From assembly GCA_944323265.1 (NCBI GenBank), contig CALURX010000022.1, positions 1 to 32,970 on the forward strand: a stretch of DNA of 32,970 nt, given 5' to 3'. Within the stretch, counting starts at the first letter, position 1. Each line of letters opens with the position of its first letter. The stretch comes from Candidatus Gastranaerophilales bacterium (lineage in GTDB: Bacteria > Cyanobacteriota > Vampirovibrionia > Gastranaerophilales > Gastranaerophilaceae). Of the stretch, positions 5,370 through 25,335 are shown piece by piece. The position numbers and the translations under genes are program-made. A model generated the notes under the pieces. That model was given only the letters and a program-made list of their open reading frames with translations. It ran no database searches and was not told the origin of the DNA.

Positions 5370-7223
5370 CTAAGCTTTATGAGATTCTCTATTTTGAGAT
5401 GCTGCCATCATCTTTGCGTGTGTCTTACGCGTATTTGAATATGTAAGCAAAGGTATCAGACAGCCCAGTATGACAGGAGAAATTATAAATGTGGAAAGAA
5501 CTCCCGGTAAAGAATTTAAACCGCGTGCTACTGTTGCTATTTTATTTTTCTTAATATCAACAGCACTTTGCATCAATTCCGTAATTAATTTATTTCCGTT
5601 TTCACCTTCAAGTTTTTCAACAAAGGAAATAATTTTTTTATTCTTATCAGCGCGATTCATGCCTTTTAATGATTCCAGCTTAAATGTCGAATCATTAAAT
5701 ACTTTATCTGCATTTTCGGATTTTGATAAAATCTTTTCCAAATCTCCGCCCTTATTATTAACATAGTGACAGAAATTCATCATTTTTTCTTTTGAATTTA
5801 TATTTCCATAAAGAGCTTCTAATTCAGCATTAGTAAAGACTTTTAAATCACTGAAAGGATTCAAGACATCCAGAGTTTTTCTAAAGAAATTCTTGTTTTC
5901 TGAAGCTTTGTTTGTAAGTATAAATCCTTGATGATTTTCATAAGAGTTTACAATCAACTTAGTCAATATCGGAACGGCAAATACAACTGACAGAGAAGAA
6001 ATAGAATCTCTCAATAAAATTTCGTGGATTTCAGACATATCTTTCTTGCCATTCTCGTCAACAATAGCTCTGTCATAAGCTCTTAAGCCTCTTGGAAGAA
6101 GAAGCCCGAATAATGATAGACAAGCGAAAGTTGCAGGTGAAAAATTATATCCGCTATACTCAAATTCTGCTTGAATCCACTCAGGAACCTTTTTTGTGAA
6201 AAATTCACCAATTTTTGCAATAGGTCCGCCAGAATTAATACCTCGGCCTTTAAACGAAGGGTTCTGTTTGTTTTGAGCATCTTTACCTTTTTTTGCTTCT
6301 ACAAGATGTTTTGCACCAGGTGCAACATCATTTGGTGCATATATTTTAGGCAAAACAGAGAGGCCGCCTAAAGTTACGGCTATATTTGCAACATTTGTCA
6401 TAAAGCGCTTTGTCGCAAAATTATTTTTAATATTCTCTGCTGCCTTCTCATCAACAAGAGCAAAGTCCTTATTATTGTATATTGCATCATTGCCGAAATC
6501 TTTGATTGCCTTTAAAACATCGCCGGCAGCAAACAATTTTTTGTCTTCACCTACTTTTAACTTGCACAAGTCATCCAATTCGGTTGAATTTTCTACCATT
6601 TTTTCATTCAACCTATCAAGAATTTTTTTATAAGAAGCGGCACTAGCCTTTTTATCTTTTGAATCGAAGGTTTTAAATTCAGATAATATATAATTAATTG
6701 TCTCATCAGCTTTTTTATCATTTGGTATTGTCTCTTTATAGATATTACCAATGCTGTATTTATAAAATTCTTCTTTGAATTTTTCTTTGTCAGCTTTTAT
6801 TGACTTATCAAATTCCGGAGATTTTATCATATTCTTTAAGTTATCTCCCATCCTTTTAATAAGTCTTGTATTTGTATTTGTAGAAAGACAGAATTTTCTG
6901 GTAAACCACAAAACTGCAGGCGCAACCGCAATCATAAACGGTCCGGTAAGTCCTTCACGTCCTAAAACTTCCAAGCCTTCCTGAACATTATATTCCCCTG
7001 TAACCTCTTTATCTCTGTGAAATCCGGTAAGTACACGAGGCAAGGTCATACCAAGACCATCCTGAATCAAGAAAGAGAGAAGGTATCCCTTATTCTCAAT
7101 TCCTTGCATAACTGTACCTGAGGCACCTAAAGCCCACATTCCGAATGACTTAAAGGAAGGATTCTGTTTTCTTTGGCTATGATTTTGATTCGGAGTTTGA
7201 GCGTTGATACTTGTAATTTTCAA
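5370..7223 (-). CDS. Unknown membrane protein with duplicated FK-motif module
   Basis: I do not recognise this protein (617 residues from a TTG start). I chose TTG at 7223 because AGGG lies 8 bases before it; the same frame opens at another TTG at 7244 without a ribosome site. The heptapeptide KQNPSFK occurs twice, exactly 300 residues apart (about 19-25 and 319-325). Each copy is followed by a similar module: a hydrophobic stretch with LPR (61-63 and 376-378), a polar loop, a Glu...Arg-Glu/Asp helix (EVLGREGLTGP, EILLRDSISS) and another hydrophobic helix. A lysine-rich helical region separates the modules, and a C-terminal membrane segment ends the protein. The gene at 23809 has the same layout. 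Function unknown; probably membrane-bound. Confidence 0.75.
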   Translation of the reverse strand: MKITSINAQTPNQNHSQRKQNPSFKSFGMWALGASGTVMQGIENKGYLLSFLIQDGLGMTLPRVLTGFHRDKEVTGEYNVQEGLEVLGREGLTGPFMIAVAPAVLWFTRKFCLSTNTNTRLIKRMGDNLKNMIKSPEFDKSIKADKEKFKEEFYKYSIGNIYKETIPNDKKADETINYILSEFKTFDSKDKKASAASYKKILDRLNEKMVENSTELDDLCKLKVGEDKKLFAAGDVLKAIKDFGNDAIYNNKDFALVDEKAAENIKNNFATKRFMTNVANIAVTLGGLSVLPKIYAPNDVAPGAKHLVEAKKGKDAQNKQNPSFKGRGINSGGPIAKIGEFFTKKVPEWIQAEFEYSGYNFSPATFACLSLFGLLLPRGLRAYDRAIVDENGKKDMSEIHEILLRDSISSLSVVFAVPILTKLIVNSYENHQGFILTNKASENKNFFRKTLDVLNPFSDLKVFTNAELEALYGNINSKEKMMNFCHYVNNKGGDLEKILSKSENADKVFNDSTFKLESLKGMNRADKNKKIISFVEKLEGENGNKLITELMQSAVDIKKNKIATVARGLNSLPGVLSTFIISPVILGCLIPLLTYSNTRKTHAKMMAASQNRESHKA

Positions 7224-7246
7224 TATTCTATCCCTACATTTCAACT

Positions 7247-7954: not shown

Positions 7955-8248
7955 TAACTCTAAAACGTTTTGAGTTTTTAGCCTGTAGGTCAGGCATTGC
8001 CAGACTATTGCAACAAAAAATTTGTATCAGGCTTTTTTTTATAAAACCCCTGTCACAGCGGGAAAATCTTTGATTTTCGCGGCAGTCCATTTTTTTAACT
8101 TTGACTTATCGTGTGCATAGGTTACTATTCTTCATCTGTTTTGATTCTTCCCAGTCACCCTCTGCAGACCTTGCTCCCGGCTGGCTGCACCAGGCGCTTT
8201 TTAATCCATTTACCCTCTTAGTCACTCAGTCACTAAACCAATATCCCC
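7955..8248. other. Intergenic stretch with imperfect palindromes
   Basis: I see no gene here. It contains an imperfect inverted repeat at about 7986-8006 (TAGGTCAGGCA against TGCCAGACTA), a CAGGC plus T8 stretch at 8028-8040 that could act as a plus-strand terminator, a perfect palindrome GAAAATC-TTT-GATTTTC at 8062-8078 flanked by GC-rich bases, and a GC-rich patch at 8155-8200. A shorter version of the ATCTTTGAT palindrome recurs at 21449-21463. The palindromes may end flagellin transcription, but none has a convincing T run on the minus strand. Confidence 0.4.
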
Positions 8249-10198
8249 CTACAACAACTGCAAAGCAATACTCGGCGTTTGGTTAACAGTTGCAAGAAGT
8301 GTTGCGGAAGCCTGTTGGAGAATTTGCATTTTGATATACTGACTGGACTCTTCCGCAATATCCGCATCACGAATAGTTGACTGCGTCGAAGTCAAATTAT
8401 CTATCGATACCCCGATTGATTCAAGCGCAGATTCAAGTCTGTTATACGCTGCGCCATATTCAGTCTGTTTTGCACTGATTTGAGCTAAAACTTCGTCAAT
8501 TTGTTCCAAGGCATTACGAGCTGAGTCTGAAGTTGATACATCAAGTGTTAGAGAAAAATTAAAACCTAACTCCAACAATATTTGTGAGCTTTCGTCAGAA
8601 TGTATACCGGCTTGAAACTTAATACTGACTGGATTAGATGGCAGTATACCACCGTCAATAAGACCACTTAAATCCAAATTTCCGTAATTGTCACCGATTG
8701 CATTTAAACCGGAATTAACGGCGCTATAGTATATACAATTATCTATAAATCCATCTTCTGTAGAACCAATAAATGCTCCAGTTGTTGTCTCATCATTGCC
8801 AATAATCGAACTTGTAGTATAACTATTATGGATTTCTCCTTGTGAAAGTCCTAATAATCCACCGACATGCTCGTCTCCTATTACACTTCCTGTCGAATAG
8901 CAATTTTGCATTGTAGAAGAGCCAGCAAATTCTCCTGCGAGTCCACCAACTTCAGTTCCTCCATTTACATTACCTGTTGCATAACTATTTAAAATGGTTC
9001 CATACCATACCTCACCAATAAGACCACCTATCAAATAGTCTGTTTCTGTTGAATTAACATTTCCGGTTGCATAACAATTATCAACTGTACACTGGTCTAC
9101 TTCACCAGCTAAACCACCGGCATAGTCACCGTCATTAGTAATATTCCCTGTTGAATATGAATTAATGATATCAAGATACTCTGCTATTCCAATAATTCCT
9201 CCGGTCTCACCGCCTCCCACAATATTTGCTGTTGAATAGCAATTTTGAATATTACCTCCCTGCAGGTCTCCAATGATACCTCCCGTCTCTCCTTTACTTC
9301 CTATAATAGTTCCATTTGTTACATAACAATTTATAAAACTTGTCGTATAACCCCCTCCACTTAATCCGCCAACATCTCTTGAGCCGGTTATATTAATATT
9401 CTCTAGGCCTATATTAGATATTATAGCGCCGTATGTATATCCAAAGAATCCTTGATAGTTTTCATTTGGTTTATTAATTGTAAGGTTTTTTATTTTATAC
9501 CCATTTCCGTTAAACTCGCCTGTAAAAGAATTTCTAGAATTACTGTCTGTTCCAATTGAATCCCAGTCATAGCCTGCAAGGTTGATATCGTTCATCAATA
9601 TGTATTTACCGTCCAGGTCGTTTTGCATTGCTTGCAATTCATCAGCGGTTTTGATAACTGTATATCCCTGTTGAATAGCTTCCTCTTCTGTTAAACGCTC
9701 AACCTCCTCAATAAAACCGTCATACTTTGCAGCAGGCGGTTCTGTTGTGGGGCCTACAGGAAAAGCTGGGCCGGATGCAGTATCGCTATAAAGCTTAATA
9801 CCGTTATACTCTGTCGTTGTACGGATTCTTACGCATTCTGCAAGGCGTGCGTTGATTTCTGATTGAATGGCGCTTAACGAAGAAGCCCCATAAGTGCCGT
9901 TTGCTGCTTGTTCTGACAGGTCGCGCATTCTGGATAAGTGGTCGGATATCAAAGACAAGCTGTCCATTGCGGTTGTCAGCATATCCAAGCCCATTGATAC
10001 GTTATCCTGAGCAACACTATAAGAGGATAATTTGCTCGCAAGGCTTGTGGAGATTGCGTAATTTGCAGCATTGTCTTTTGCGTGGTTGATTTTATATCCT
10101 GTTGTCATGCGCTCTATTGCTTGGTTTAATCCGTTTGTGGATGCGGCCAGGTTTGAGCGTACTATTAAAGAAGAGAGATTGGAGTTTATGCTAATCAT
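8249..10198 (-). CDS. fliC: Flagellin with GLUG-repeat beta-helix insert
   Basis: The protein (649 residues) has complete flagellin ends. Residues 1-145 form the N-terminal D0/D1 coiled coil (MISINSNLSSLIVRSNL, MTTGYKINHAKDNAANYAIS). Residues about 550-649 form the C-terminal D1/D0 (NLTSTQSTIRDADIAEESS to IALQLL). The part normally forming D2/D3 is replaced by about 370 residues: a lead-in like that of GLUG proteins (TADELQAMQNDLDGKYILMN, FTGEFNGNGYKIKNLTI), then eight repeats about 28 residues apart centred on GG-hydrophobic-x-G (VGGLSG, TGGIIG, AGGLAG, IGGLIG, VGGLLG), alternating with N-C/S-Y-x-T-G-x-I/V. GLUG repeats occur in bacterial surface adhesins and IgA-protease-like proteins and are predicted beta-solenoids. 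The insert should face outward on the filament. AGGAGG lies 5 bases before the ATG. Confidence 0.92.
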   Translation of the reverse strand: MISINSNLSSLIVRSNLAASTNGLNQAIERMTTGYKINHAKDNAANYAISTSLASKLSSYSVAQDNVSMGLDMLTTAMDSLSLISDHLSRMRDLSEQAANGTYGASSLSAIQSEINARLAECVRIRTTTEYNGIKLYSDTASGPAFPVGPTTEPPAAKYDGFIEEVERLTEEEAIQQGYTVIKTADELQAMQNDLDGKYILMNDINLAGYDWDSIGTDSNSRNSFTGEFNGNGYKIKNLTINKPNENYQGFFGYTYGAIISNIGLENINITGSRDVGGLSGGGYTTSFINCYVTNGTIIGSKGETGGIIGDLQGGNIQNCYSTANIVGGGETGGIIGIAEYLDIINSYSTGNITNDGDYAGGLAGEVDQCTVDNCYATGNVNSTETDYLIGGLIGEVWYGTILNSYATGNVNGGTEVGGLAGEFAGSSTMQNCYSTGSVIGDEHVGGLLGLSQGEIHNSYTTSSIIGNDETTTGAFIGSTEDGFIDNCIYYSAVNSGLNAIGDNYGNLDLSGLIDGGILPSNPVSIKFQAGIHSDESSQILLELGFNFSLTLDVSTSDSARNALEQIDEVLAQISAKQTEYGAAYNRLESALESIGVSIDNLTSTQSTIRDADIAEESSQYIKMQILQQASATLLATVNQTPSIALQLL

Positions 10199-14842: not shown

Positions 14843-15736
14843 ATGAAAGGGATTGTACTCGCAGGCGGGGCAGGAACAAGATTATATCCGGCATCTCAGC
14901 CAATTTCTAAAATTTTGCTTCCTATATATGACAAACCGATGATTTATTATCCGCTATCAACCCTTATGCTTGCAGGAATTAAAGACATCCTGATTATTAC
15001 CAATGAGACTGATTATGATAATTTTATTAAGCTGCTTGGTGACGGTTCGCAATTCGGTTTGAATCTTAAATATAAAATCCAGTATGTTCAAAGAGGGATT
15101 GCGGACGCTTTTTTGATAGCGGAAGATTTTATTGCTGGCGAGGACGTTGCGCTTATACTGGGTGATAACATATTCCACGGACACGGATTTTCAACACTTA
15201 TGAAAAATGCTCTTGCAAAACACAGCGGCGCAACAATTTTCGGATACACGGTAAAAGACCCTGAAAGATTTGGTGTTGTTGAGTTTGACGAAAATAATAA
15301 AGCAATTTCTCTGGAAGAAAAGCCTGCTAATCCAAAATCTAATTACGCTGTAACCGGTTTATATTTTTATGACGGCAGGGTATGCGAATACGCTAAACAG
15401 CTTAAACCTTCTCAAAGAGGAGAATTAGAGATTACTGATTTGAATAAAATTTATCTTGAAAAAGGCAAGTTAAATGTAGAAATCTTAGGACGCGGATTTG
15501 CATGGCTTGATACAGGAACACACGATTCAATGCTTCAGGCAAGTTTGTTTGTTCAGACAATGGAACTGAATAAAGGGGTTAAAATTTCCTGCCTTGAAGA
15601 AATTGCGTTCAATCAAGGGTTTATTACAAAAGAAGAACTTTTAAGAAAAATAGAAAAATACGGATTCAAAAACGATTACTACAATTATGTGAGAACAGTA
15701 ATTGAACATCCTGATTTGGTTGCACTGAGCGTTTAA
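14843..15736 (+). CDS. rfbA: Glucose-1-phosphate thymidylyltransferase
   Basis: The 297-residue nucleotidyltransferase joins dTTP and glucose-1-phosphate to dTDP-glucose, the first step toward dTDP-rhamnose and other dTDP sugars for surface polysaccharide. The N-terminal GGAGTRLYPAS loop binds the nucleotide, and KILLPIYDKPMIYYPLSTLM is the RmlA signature. ILGDNIFHGHG holds the metal-binding Asp, followed by EEKPANPKSNYAVTGLYFYD and GRGFAWLDTGTH. The length is standard. The other rml genes are not in the window. A GAAAGGA ribosome site precedes the ATG. Its stop overlaps the stop of the convergent gene at 15733. Confidence 0.95.
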   Translation: MKGIVLAGGAGTRLYPASQPISKILLPIYDKPMIYYPLSTLMLAGIKDILIITNETDYDNFIKLLGDGSQFGLNLKYKIQYVQRGIADAFLIAEDFIAGEDVALILGDNIFHGHGFSTLMKNALAKHSGATIFGYTVKDPERFGVVEFDENNKAISLEEKPANPKSNYAVTGLYFYDGRVCEYAKQLKPSQRGELEITDLNKIYLEKGKLNVEILGRGFAWLDTGTHDSMLQASLFVQTMELNKGVKISCLEEIAFNQGFITKEELLRKIEKYGFKNDYYNYVRTVIEHPDLVALSV

Positions 15737-16494
15737 ATTTTATCTTCAAGGTCAGAATTAAAGTATCCTGCAATATATTTAAATGTATTCAGAGCCGTAT
15801 CAATACTCATTGTGCGGGGAGTGTTTCCGCGTTTTTCTTTTACTGTTATGGTGTTATTTTTTAAGTCAACATCTTCCAGAATATAAACATGCCAGGTTCT
15901 CCCATCGAGCATCTTGGGGCCTGTTGCGATAACAAAACTGTGATTTTTCTCTTTCTCCATGTGCTCAAAAAGGTGCATAACCTCTGCTCTATAGCCGTTA
16001 AGGTCAAAGTTGAAATCAGTTTCCGCTATAACTCTCGGCTCTTTTCCGGTTAGAATTTTCATAAAATGCGATGGCAGGCTGTTTTCAAAAGTATAAGTCT
16101 TAAAGTTATCAGAAAACCGGCAAATCCACGGCTTTGCTTTGTAAGTTTTCTCGTATTCTCCGACCGAAATATCCATTGCCCTTATAATATCATTGTCCTG
16201 TTTTTCATAAAGCTTCTCATACCCTTTCACCGCCTGATTTGAAGGGATTGAATATTTTACCCTGCTGCCTTTATTATACAAATAGCAGTTAATAATATTC
16301 GGGTTATTATCATCGTATTCTATCTGTTTTTTCAAAACCTTTCTGCCGTTCGGCGTATGTGAAAGCGTCTCCAGAGTTGTCATCAAATAACAATCGCTAA
16401 AATGCTGTTTTGCCTGCTCAAAATTATCAATATCCTTATCTGATATTGACGCTTTAAAGCTAATAAAATTCGGATAGTTAATACGAGAGAGCAT
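15733..16494 (-). CDS. Candidate calpain-like cysteine peptidase with FK motif
   Basis: The 253-residue protein has no clear name. The N-terminus carries the FK motif (NFISFKAS, residues 9-16). FSDCYLMTTLETLSHTPNGR resembles the calpain active-site helix (G-D-C-W-L-L-A-A-L), with Cys35 as possible nucleophile. RTWHVYILEDVD puts His202 where calpains have G-H-A-Y, and Asn224 (KRGN) lies 22 residues later, close to the spacing of the calpain His and Asn. The distal half alternates short beta strands and loops. Gln27 or Gln30 could form the oxyanion hole. There is no signal peptide and no calcium-site motif. The peptidase call is pattern-based; a catalytically dead relative is possible. Confidence 0.45.
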   Translation of the reverse strand: MLSRINYPNFISFKASISDKDIDNFEQAKQHFSDCYLMTTLETLSHTPNGRKVLKKQIEYDDNNPNIINCYLYNKGSRVKYSIPSNQAVKGYEKLYEKQDNDIIRAMDISVGEYEKTYKAKPWICRFSDNFKTYTFENSLPSHFMKILTGKEPRVIAETDFNFDLNGYRAEVMHLFEHMEKEKNHSFVIATGPKMLDGRTWHVYILEDVDLKNNTITVKEKRGNTPRTMSIDTALNTFKYIAGYFNSDLEDKI

Positions 16495-19268: not shown

Positions 19269-19298
19269 GTGAAGAGTGAGGCGTGAAGCGTGAAGGGT
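19269..19298 (+). repeat. Left heptamer array of the IVS-like element
   Basis: Four tandem heptamers GTGAAGA, GTGAGGC, GTGAAGC, GTGAAGG plus GT. The last unit (GAAGGG, about 6 bases before the ATG at 19304) can also serve as the ribosome site of the enclosed gene. Confidence 0.85.
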
Positions 19299-19303
19299 AC
19301 ATT

Positions 19304-19651
19304 ATGAATCACAAAGATTTAGATGTTTGGAAAAAATCGGTAGATTTAGTTTTAAAAATATACAACATAACTAAACAATTCCCTAAAGAAGAAATGTTCG
19401 GTATTGTTAACCAAATGAGAAGAGCCGCAATTTCCATCCCTTCAAATATTGCAGAGGGCTGTGCAAGATATTCAGACAAAGATACTTTAAGATTTATTGA
19501 TGTTGCTTTTGGCTCAGTTGCAGAATTAGAAACTCAATTAATAATTGCAGAACAGTTAGGTTATTGCAAAAGTTGTGAGATTGTGGGCGATATTGACAAA
19601 GTTGAAAAATTATTGTCAGGCTTGCGTCGCCATCTAAAAAATAAAAATTAA
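19304..19651 (+). CDS. Four-helix-bundle protein, 23S rRNA intervening-sequence family
   Basis: From the ATG at 19304 the protein has 115 residues; an in-frame GTG at 19283 lies inside the repeat arm and is less likely. The family pattern is clear: HKDLDVWKKSVDLVLKIY, then FGIVNQMRRAAISIPSNIAEG, then FIDVAFGSVAELETQLIIA and a final helix rich in Leu and Arg (LLSGLRRHLK). This is the S23/IVP four-helix-bundle family, which also includes the Avd accessory proteins of diversity-generating retroelements. Such basic bundles are thought to bind nucleic acid. No reverse transcriptase is nearby. Its arm repeats and its place inside groESL suggest it arrived as a small mobile unit. Confidence 0.88.
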   Translation: MNHKDLDVWKKSVDLVLKIYNITKQFPKEEMFGIVNQMRRAAISIPSNIAEGCARYSDKDTLRFIDVAFGSVAELETQLIIAEQLGYCKSCEIVGDIDKVEKLLSGLRRHLKNKN

Positions 19652-23591: not shown

Positions 23592-23621
23592 TTGACATAA
23601 ATCAGAATATAAGTGTATACT
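23592..23621 (+). promoter_or_regulatory. Strong promoter before the leader ORF
   Basis: A perfect -35 TTGACA (23592-23597), 18 bases, and TATACT (23616-23621). Transcription should begin near 23628, a dozen bases before the leader ATG, which has AAGGA 6 bases upstream. Confidence 0.75.
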
Positions 23622-23639
23622 AAACACAAAGGAAAAATT

Positions 23640-23714
23640 ATGAAAAACTTACACTTTGAATTAGCAAACAATTCATCCTCCAATTCATCCAAGTTGCAAT
23701 CGGGACTTGAATGA
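23640..23714 (+). CDS. 24-residue Ser/Asn-rich leader peptide
   Basis: A short frame with its own ribosome site (AAGGA) starts at 23640 and stops at TGA 23712-23714. It contains the run NNSSSNSSK, where five of eight codons after the first Asn pair are Ser or Asn (serine codons TCA, TCC, TCC, TCA, TCC). The run lies 10-28 bases before the first arm of the alternative hairpins. Size, position after a strong promoter and codon run are those of an amino-acid-sensing leader peptide. It was too short to be listed as a normal gene. A stand-alone small peptide gene is the alternative. Confidence 0.5.
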   Translation: MKNLHFELANNSSSNSSKLQSGLE

Positions 23715-23787
23715 ATTTTGATGTGTAGTTTTTAATACAGATTTAGAAAAAAGAAGTCCCGCCTAGTAGATAGATGGGACTTCTTTT
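23701..23787 (+). promoter_or_regulatory. Attenuator-like alternative hairpins
   Basis: Three segments can pair in two exclusive ways. A is CGGGACTT (23701-23708), overlapping the last leader codons. B is AAGTCCCG (23754-23761). C is GGGACTTCTT (23776-23785), followed by TT. A with B gives 8 perfect pairs. B extended upstream (AAGAAGTCCC, 23751-23760) with C gives 10 perfect pairs and ends in a T run, a proper terminator. A ribosome finishing the leader would cover A and favour termination; one stalled in the Ser/Asn run would leave A free to block it. The gene at 23809 follows. Confidence 0.55.
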
Positions 23788-23808
23788 ATTGTGCTTGAAA
23801 GGGAATAT

Positions 23809-25335
23809 ATGGACTTAACAATTAACAAATTTAACACAAACTTGGCATTCAAAGGCCCGCTTGACGGCGCTATAACAGGGATTTTAAGAACCTGCGACAC
23901 CAGTGAAATGGTTAATGCAGTAGGACTTGATATCGGGGCTATGGTAATCCCGAGAGCATATTATGATACAAAAGCTCGTAACAAATACGCAGGATGCGAG
24001 ACATTTATTAGAGAAATAAGCGGAACATTCATAAACTGTCTTGCAGCAGGAATTTTTGCAAAATATATTTCTAAAGTTGCTTCTCAGGACATTATGCCGG
24101 ATGTAAAAATTAACCCTAAAAGCTGGTACACAAAGGCTTCTCTTGCTACTTTAAAAGAGGCTTGGGATAAAAGCGGCAATATTAAAGGGTATGTAAAAAA
24201 TGTTTTTGAAAATCTTTCCGGCAGAGACGGCCATAACATTAATGAGTTTAAAAACATAAACTGGAGCAAAATTGACTGGATAGACGAAAAACGCTGGGAA
24301 AAAATTAAATGGAATAATGAAGAATATAAAAATATCCAAGACAAACTCAAAACAAAAGAAGATTTTACCAAAACTTTTGTCAAACTTATTGAAGATAAAA
24401 ATATTACAGACAATGACCGTAAAAATATTTTAAAATTAATGGAACACCGTCTCACTAATGCTCTCGGAGCCGGAAGGGACACCGAGGTTAAAATAGGAGA
24501 CAAAACTCTTTGTGCAAAACTTGAAAACATTTTACGAGATTCACATGATATGGCAAAAGATATTTTTACCAATAAAGAGGTAAATACAGAGGCTGCAATC
24601 AAAAAAATTGCAAAAATCAACAAAATAAAAACTTTTGGTGCAATTGCAGGTGCTTCTCTATTAGGAATTACAAACCAGTATATCAACAGAAAAATAACCG
24701 AAAAACGAACCGGGAAAAAGGGTTTTGTAGGCGAAGTGGACTTTACTTCAAGCTTTAGAAAAGAGCGTAAAAAAGATAATTTTTTATGGCTCAAAAAAAC
24801 TCTGGCAAGTGCCGGCATGGCTGGTATGGTTATAAGCGTAATGCGTGTGAAAAATTTGAAGGACTTTGCCCGCAAGCTTGAATTTACAGGTCCAATCACC
24901 AGCGGAAACGCAATTAAAACAGTTTACGCCTTTAATATTATCGGAAGATTTATGGCAGCAGACAACGGAACAGAGCTTAGAGAATCAATGACAAGAGATT
25001 ATTTCGGCTTCCTAAACTGGCTTGTATTTGGCGGTTTTGCAGCCAAGGGAGTTGCAAATCTTCTTGACAAAAAAGGAGAGCATTTATTTAATTACACTAA
25101 AAAAGGTAAAGGATTAAAACACTGGTTAAATGATATGAGCCTAAAAACCCATAATGAAATCGCTTCAAAAGGAAAAGATTTTGCGAAGAATAATATCTGG
25201 AAATTAAACCTCGCGCATGCCTGCGGTCTTGCATATTCTGCTATAACTCTTGGAATATTACTCCCTATGGTTAATGCAAAAATGACAAAATATAAAAGCC
25301 GCAAGAAGGAAGGAGAGCAAGCAAGCTTATCTTAA
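23809..25335 (+). CDS. Unknown membrane protein, two-module FK-motif family
   Basis: The protein has 508 residues from the ATG at 23809 (AAAGGG 5 bases upstream); a GTG at 23791 in the same frame overlaps the hairpin region and is less likely. I know no named family. It starts MDLTINKFNTNLAFKGPLDG, with the FK motif at 13-16. The first module (about 35-90) has IGAMVIPRAYYDT, a loop, ETFIREISGTF and a hydrophobic helix. A second, related module (about 357-425) opens with LEFTGP and has IIGRFMAADNGTELRESMTRDYFGFLNWLVFGG. A charged helical region with Trp-Lys-rich repeats lies between, and a hydrophobic segment is near the C-terminus. The layout parallels the protein at 5370-7223. Expression may be controlled by the leader attenuator. 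Confidence 0.75.
   Translation: MDLTINKFNTNLAFKGPLDGAITGILRTCDTSEMVNAVGLDIGAMVIPRAYYDTKARNKYAGCETFIREISGTFINCLAAGIFAKYISKVASQDIMPDVKINPKSWYTKASLATLKEAWDKSGNIKGYVKNVFENLSGRDGHNINEFKNINWSKIDWIDEKRWEKIKWNNEEYKNIQDKLKTKEDFTKTFVKLIEDKNITDNDRKNILKLMEHRLTNALGAGRDTEVKIGDKTLCAKLENILRDSHDMAKDIFTNKEVNTEAAIKKIAKINKIKTFGAIAGASLLGITNQYINRKITEKRTGKKGFVGEVDFTSSFRKERKKDNFLWLKKTLASAGMAGMVISVMRVKNLKDFARKLEFTGPITSGNAIKTVYAFNIIGRFMAADNGTELRESMTRDYFGFLNWLVFGGFAAKGVANLLDKKGEHLFNYTKKGKGLKHWLNDMSLKTHNEIASKGKDFAKNNIWKLNLAHACGLAYSAITLGILLPMVNAKMTKYKSRKKEGEQASLS

Follow-up and report, generated by a model that had tools for sequence, protein, structure and literature searches.

The stretch of DNA analysed here, referred to as the window, comprises 32,970 nucleotides from a Candidatus Gastranaerophilales bacterium. 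A short leader separates a divergent glycosyltransferase-like gene from a gene for a 508-aa orphan multi-helix, probably membrane protein (23809-25335, forward strand). The gene start at 23809 is consistent with the orthologues. The leader is preceded by a forward-strand promoter at 23592-23621 with the -35 box TTGACA (23592-23597), an 18-nt spacer and the -10 box TATACT (23616-23621). It matches the consensus at 11 out of 12 positions, in agreement with the first-pass annotation of this DNA, which had called the promoter strong, and in aligned relatives its TTGAC is invariant or nearly so and TAT is conserved. Elsewhere in the window there is a four-helix-bundle ORF between groES and groEL (19283-19651), which we take to be S23-like, and 8249-10198 presumably encodes a flagellin-like protein that combines flagellin ends at both the N- and the C-terminus with a long repetitive insert.

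The leader ORF, MKNLHFELANNSSSNSSKLQSGLE, has 24 codons and runs on the forward strand from the ATG at 23640 to the TGA stop at 23712-23714 (23640-23714), with a short 5' UTR containing AAGG. Its putative regulatory codons are TCA TCC TCC AAT TCA TCC, encoding Ser-Ser-Ser-Asn-Ser-Ser, at 23673-23690. Segment A or strand 2 (CGGGACTT, 23701-23708) lies within leader codons 21-23 and forms the 5' arm of a predicted antiterminator. Segment B or strand 3 (23749-23761, core AAGTCCCG at 23754-23761) is common to the antiterminator and the terminator, and segment C or strand 4 (TGGGACTTCTTTT, 23775-23787) provides the terminator 3' arm and the T run. A:B has 8 bp and B:C at least 10 bp plus the T run. 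The ORF and these three segments lie where they had been annotated. We add strand 1, CAAGT at 23690-23694, whose partner is 23705-23709 and which is proposed to hold A when no ribosome is stalled, completing a 1:2 / 2:3 / 3:4 scheme. Downstream of the stop codon is a conserved motif, TTTTGATGTGTAGTTTTT (23716-23734). In the upstream regions of five relatives (L015, L016, L019, L020 and L023), the leader ATG is found about 6-12 nt past the -10 box, so close that the leader ORF may be translated there from a leaderless or nearly leaderless transcript.

Such an arrangement is rarely produced by chance. In dinucleotide shuffles, an A:B pairing of at least 8 bp sharing B with a B:C pairing of at least 8 bp plus a T run reached the observed strength in 0 out of 400 cases, and any such triple, regardless of strength, appeared in 2 out of 400. 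A scan covering about half of this genome (about 1.22 Mb, with 302 terminator-like hairpins) for a leader ORF with a codon run and A/B/C returned one place, the window leader. A simple terminator scan restricted to loops of up to 8 nt did not pick up B:C, because its loop is 13 nt. Searching the whole window with the Rfam covariance models at gathering score gave two tRNAs only and no known leader, T-box or riboswitch.

The controlled protein is found in some form in all 65 genus genomes searched, and 36 of the proteins are clear orthologues with 64-100% identity; a 92% identical protein is encoded on CALUWH010000001. The leader is present in front of 35 out of the 36 orthologues, in-frame and with variable length, and in the L028 orthologue the gene is retained and the leader lost. 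Trained on 29 leaders, a covariance model gave 35 strong matches in the genus, every one immediately upstream of an orthologue, and further matches in five other genera of the family, with the same gene downstream where checked. Several weaker matches (in G002, G050, G041, G015, G035, G063 and G039) were examined and set aside, as they resemble common 3'-end terminators that no leader accompanies. The leader is also missing from tandem paralogues of about 30% identity (G000:C77). Three relatives (L014, L023 and L025) have lost the usual stop of the leader or have its tail in a different frame, and still keep the run and A/B/C. The first-pass annotation would have read a terminator conserved on its own as a simple small transcript; the relatives keep the codon run together with A, B and C.

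Both alternative pairings covary in the alignment of the 29 leaders. A:B has 97.8% standard pairs and 12 double-change cells, B:C has 98.6% standard pairs and 30 double-change cells with double changes at 8 out of the 10 pairs, and for each the observed covariation was found in 0 out of 500 shuffles. Shifting the partner by 1-3 columns destroyed the covariation of both. Since A is coding sequence (codons 21-23) and B is non-coding, this covariation is strong evidence for A:B. Furthermore, A is complementary to B over at least 6 contiguous pairs in 88 out of 93 leaders, counting the serine type together with the cysteine type described below; typical A/B/C triples are CGGGACTT/AAGTCCCG/GGGACTT, CGGAACTT/AAGTTCCG/CGGAACTT and CAGAGCTT/GAGCTCTG/CAGAGCTT. 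When A was swapped against the B segments of other loci of the same type, own pairs scored higher on average but were poorly separated from the rest, since A and B differ little among leaders of one type, and we relied on the covariation instead. For the 1:2 hairpin, 90% of cells are paired in relatives and covariation is absent in the serine set. The post-stop motif ranks with the best-conserved stretches of the serine-type leaders, and a similar TTTTGYRTGCAG is found in the cysteine types. A helix between the leader start and this motif was considered and dropped for weak support.

Length and starting point differ among the leader peptides, which contain a serine run followed by lysine and a short tail, for example MKNLHFELTNNSSSSSSKLHSGLE, MENLYFTTSSSSSSSKLHSELE and MRNFNVNNTSSSSSSKLSPRLR. 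Serine codons make up 25% of the leader codons, and in 63 serine-type leaders 95% of them are TCN, nearly half being TCC, compared with a TCN share of 71% (0.708) in the genome. The first-pass annotation had suggested that the leader senses serine or asparagine. The TCN serine codons are conserved, in line with the serine part of this claim, and asparagine sensing is rejected, as most relatives lack the Asn of the run and it shows no conservation.

Paralogues of the same family in Gastranaerophilales (39-59% identity) share this layout, except that a cysteine run (CCCCK) replaces the serine run, as in the leader peptides MKNSFVNNLICCCCKSCC, MKNLINNNLVCCCCKIRCRNLL and MTNKINANLTSCCCCKFKGGTY. 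Their 1:2 hairpin is clear and longer, judged by eye, and starts in the last Cys codon, with GTAAGT:ACTTAC (TGTAAGT...ACTTAC) and, in L145, GTAAAAT:ATTTTAC (GTAAAAT...ATTTTAC). Since cysteine codons occupy this position in the paralogues, the putative switch is not tied to serine. Some genomes hold both serine-leader and cysteine-leader genes. On the protein tree the leader type changes twice: a large serine clade arises from within cysteine-type lineages, and L190 represents a separate switch. In B. subtilis under serine starvation, ribosome density rises at UCN and not at AGC/AGU codons, and it also rises at Cys codons, which is explained by cysteine being made from serine (PMC3862929). Auxotrophy for serine or cysteine was rejected as the reason for the leaders, as all 20 genomes tested possess cysE, whether they carry one of the leaders or not.

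The composition of the controlled proteins follows the leader type. Serine content is 4.47% in 54 serine-leader proteins, 6.89% in 18 cysteine-leader proteins and 7.60% in four leaderless paralogues. Cysteine content in the same three sets is 0.65%, 0.12% and 0.69%, with 1.14% in the genome. The TCN share among serine codons is 0.611 in serine-type targets, 0.764 in cysteine-type targets and 0.708 in the genome. Judged by these compositions, the proteins avoid the amino acid read by their own leader. Because the leader type changed only twice on the tree, the contrast between serine and cysteine composition rests on few independent events, and L190, which switched to a serine leader, has nevertheless retained low cysteine and has 6.1% serine. 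The pattern fits the cognate bias hypothesis, which holds that proteins needed in starvation avoid the missing amino acid and which was described for biosynthetic enzymes (PMC4209129).

Another protein family, found via a weak model match and unrelated to the serine/cysteine family by BLAST-level sequence, has a conserved histidine-run leader (MKNFSSLKLHHTHHHSVLGRLWS and others). It is present in 115 out of 191 family genomes, and the leader peptide in the window genome is MTLLTARHHHTHTDPEGPGVLLFL. Members include L225 (G000:C32, gene at 8196-9401 on the reverse strand) and L195-L224. The proteins contain 0.03% histidine, and 25 out of 28 contain none at all. By composition, this family is a separate instance of depletion of the sensed amino acid, apart from the serine/cysteine contrast. 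Several members lack a T run after C, and an upstream CAATTC offers a pairing partner for the Shine-Dalgarno sequence (GAATTGGAG), which suggests that control in this family may be translational rather than transcriptional. The serine, cysteine and histidine runs share nothing at the RNA level, and thus their common property is codon meaning.

No family member had a meaningful match in Pfam, NCBIfam or the PDB sequences. The hydrophobic helices of the 508-aa product suggest that it probably sits in the membrane, so that the earlier description of the gene as encoding a membrane protein outside known families is upheld. Its structure was predicted confidently (pLDDT 84.8, 44-sequence alignment), and a structure search against the PDB and viral models gave nothing significant. 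The best hit (VIA-align Z 7.1) was a likeness to membrane pyrophosphatase, which we discarded as within the range of common arrangements. The neighbours of the controlled gene are not conserved among relatives, which makes it a single-gene unit keeping its switch. A formate/nitrite transporter gene lies downstream in the window and in one close relative (L011) only, and was not taken as a clue to function. The evidence is best matched by the guess that the product might be a membrane protein acquiring or sparing serine or cysteine, needed when these run out. That the gene may serve the metabolism of the sensed amino acid is supported indirectly by the depletion of this amino acid in the product; against the serine reading, the gene has no established connection with serine. 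An F-K-G/S/A motif near the N-terminus is common to several orphan proteins in the window (5370-7244, 15733-16494 and 23809-25335), and a similar SFTG occurs in the histidine-leader family.

Folding the RNA 23628-23808, with and without the leader region masked, had been suggested as a check in the first-pass annotation. The fold has a z-score of -3.04, and the position of the ribosome is predicted to change the pairing. Before C is made, the partition function of the window RNA gives a probability of 0.97 for 1:2 without a ribosome and of 0.98 for A:B when a ribosome occupies the run's Ser codons; a ribosome at the stop masks A, and neither 1:2 nor A:B forms. Once C is present, B:C wins at equilibrium in every ribosome state, so the switch must be kinetic and decided during transcription, as in known attenuators. 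The distance from the start of the last run codon to A has a median of 12 nt in 55 measurable serine leaders and of 14 nt in 31 cysteine leaders. The leading edge of a ribosome usually lies about 15 nt past the P-site base. With this spacing, a ribosome stalled at the run would expose A and hide strand 1.

We propose that the leader is a ribosome-mediated transcription attenuator of the Trp/His type which reads the serine supply, and assign this reading a probability of roughly 0.86. The transcript would begin near 23628 and a ribosome would translate the leader peptide. With ample Ser-tRNA, the ribosome would reach the stop at 23712 and cover A, leaving B free for C, and transcription would terminate near 23787. 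If UCN-reading Ser-tRNA ran short, the ribosome would stall in the serine run with its leading edge at or just before A and with strand 1 masked; A could then pair with the emerging B, the terminator would be blocked and the gene transcribed. Without translation, the 1:2 hairpin would hold A and termination would follow. The stalling, termination and induction upon serine shortage are what the sequence and the folding lead us to infer. The attenuator reading of the first-pass annotation is thereby supported: A:B covaries, and relatives retain the codon run along with all three segments.

Three other explanations have to be weighed. The C-rich serine run could work at the RNA level, by loading Rho or as an anti-Shine-Dalgarno-like UCCUCC, with the peptide incidental. 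The run is indeed pyrimidine-rich (TCATCCTCC) with an anti-SD-like CCTCC, but in the paralogues this exact position, with the same A/B/C, is taken by a U/G-rich cysteine run (TGTTGTTGCTGT), the frame and stop are conserved, and an intrinsic terminator is present; we regard this explanation as highly improbable. The leader might instead report general translation stress, such as a ribosome-targeting antibiotic or a global slowing, and not serine. Antibiotic-induced stalling has been described for bacterial uORFs (PMC12121999), and the fold states are set solely by the position at which the ribosome stops. However, the codon identity is Ser or Cys across many genera, the products are depleted of the same amino acid, and the unconserved neighbours offer no resistance context, which makes general stress a very unlikely signal.

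Moreover, the strong promoter and the terminator that flank a short ORF would also suit a locus that lacks any switch, either a small transcript terminated constitutively or a small peptide gene in its own right, and no role is known for the conserved post-stop motif. This view is opposed by the covariation of A with B despite its coding function, the constant position before the same gene and the failure of shuffles to give the triple, so that a locus with no switch is extremely unlikely. Beyond the serine-reading attenuator itself, we consider it somewhat probable that orphan probable membrane proteins of Gastranaerophilales, each with its own Ser, Cys or His codon-reading attenuator, form a non-biosynthetic starvation response, in which leaders have switched between serine and cysteine within one gene family and the product was then purged of the sensed amino acid. 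The leader would indicate the condition, serine or cysteine shortage, in which a protein with an unknown fold is required, and would offer an approach to genes beyond the reach of homology-based annotation. Outside biosynthetic enzymes, the link between leader codon and product depletion is also a natural test of cognate bias.

In the open-access literature, which leaves most subscription journals outside, we found neither a report of a serine-reading attenuator nor one of attenuation in this gut lineage related to Cyanobacteriota. The mechanism itself is classical, and cysteine leaders are already known before cysS and cys operons. Like the trpL and hisL attenuators, the window leader has a codon run in a leader ORF just upstream of strand 2, and predicted strands 1-4 with exclusive 2:3 and 3:4 pairings. 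Unlike in trpL and hisL, the amino acid sensed by window-type leaders would be serine (UCN) or cysteine, and strand 2 lies within the last leader codons. Furthermore, trpL and hisL control amino-acid operons, whereas the window leader precedes a lone gene for an orphan probable membrane protein. A Cys codon run in a short upstream ORF is shared with uORFC-8-2 before cysS in Rhodobacterales (PMC8632094), which also has a terminator, and with the cysteine leaders of mycobacterial cys operons (PMC1262725). Both belong to another phylum and to other genes, whereas here serine and cysteine leaders are interchangeable within one gene family. The sinR gene of B. subtilis resembles the window leader in that TCN serine codons read serine depletion, but they do so inside the structural gene, without a leader, RNA switch or terminator (PMC3862929). 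Cognate bias was described for biosynthetic enzymes (PMC4209129), whereas here it would concern orphan probable membrane proteins and be tied to the codon read by the leader.
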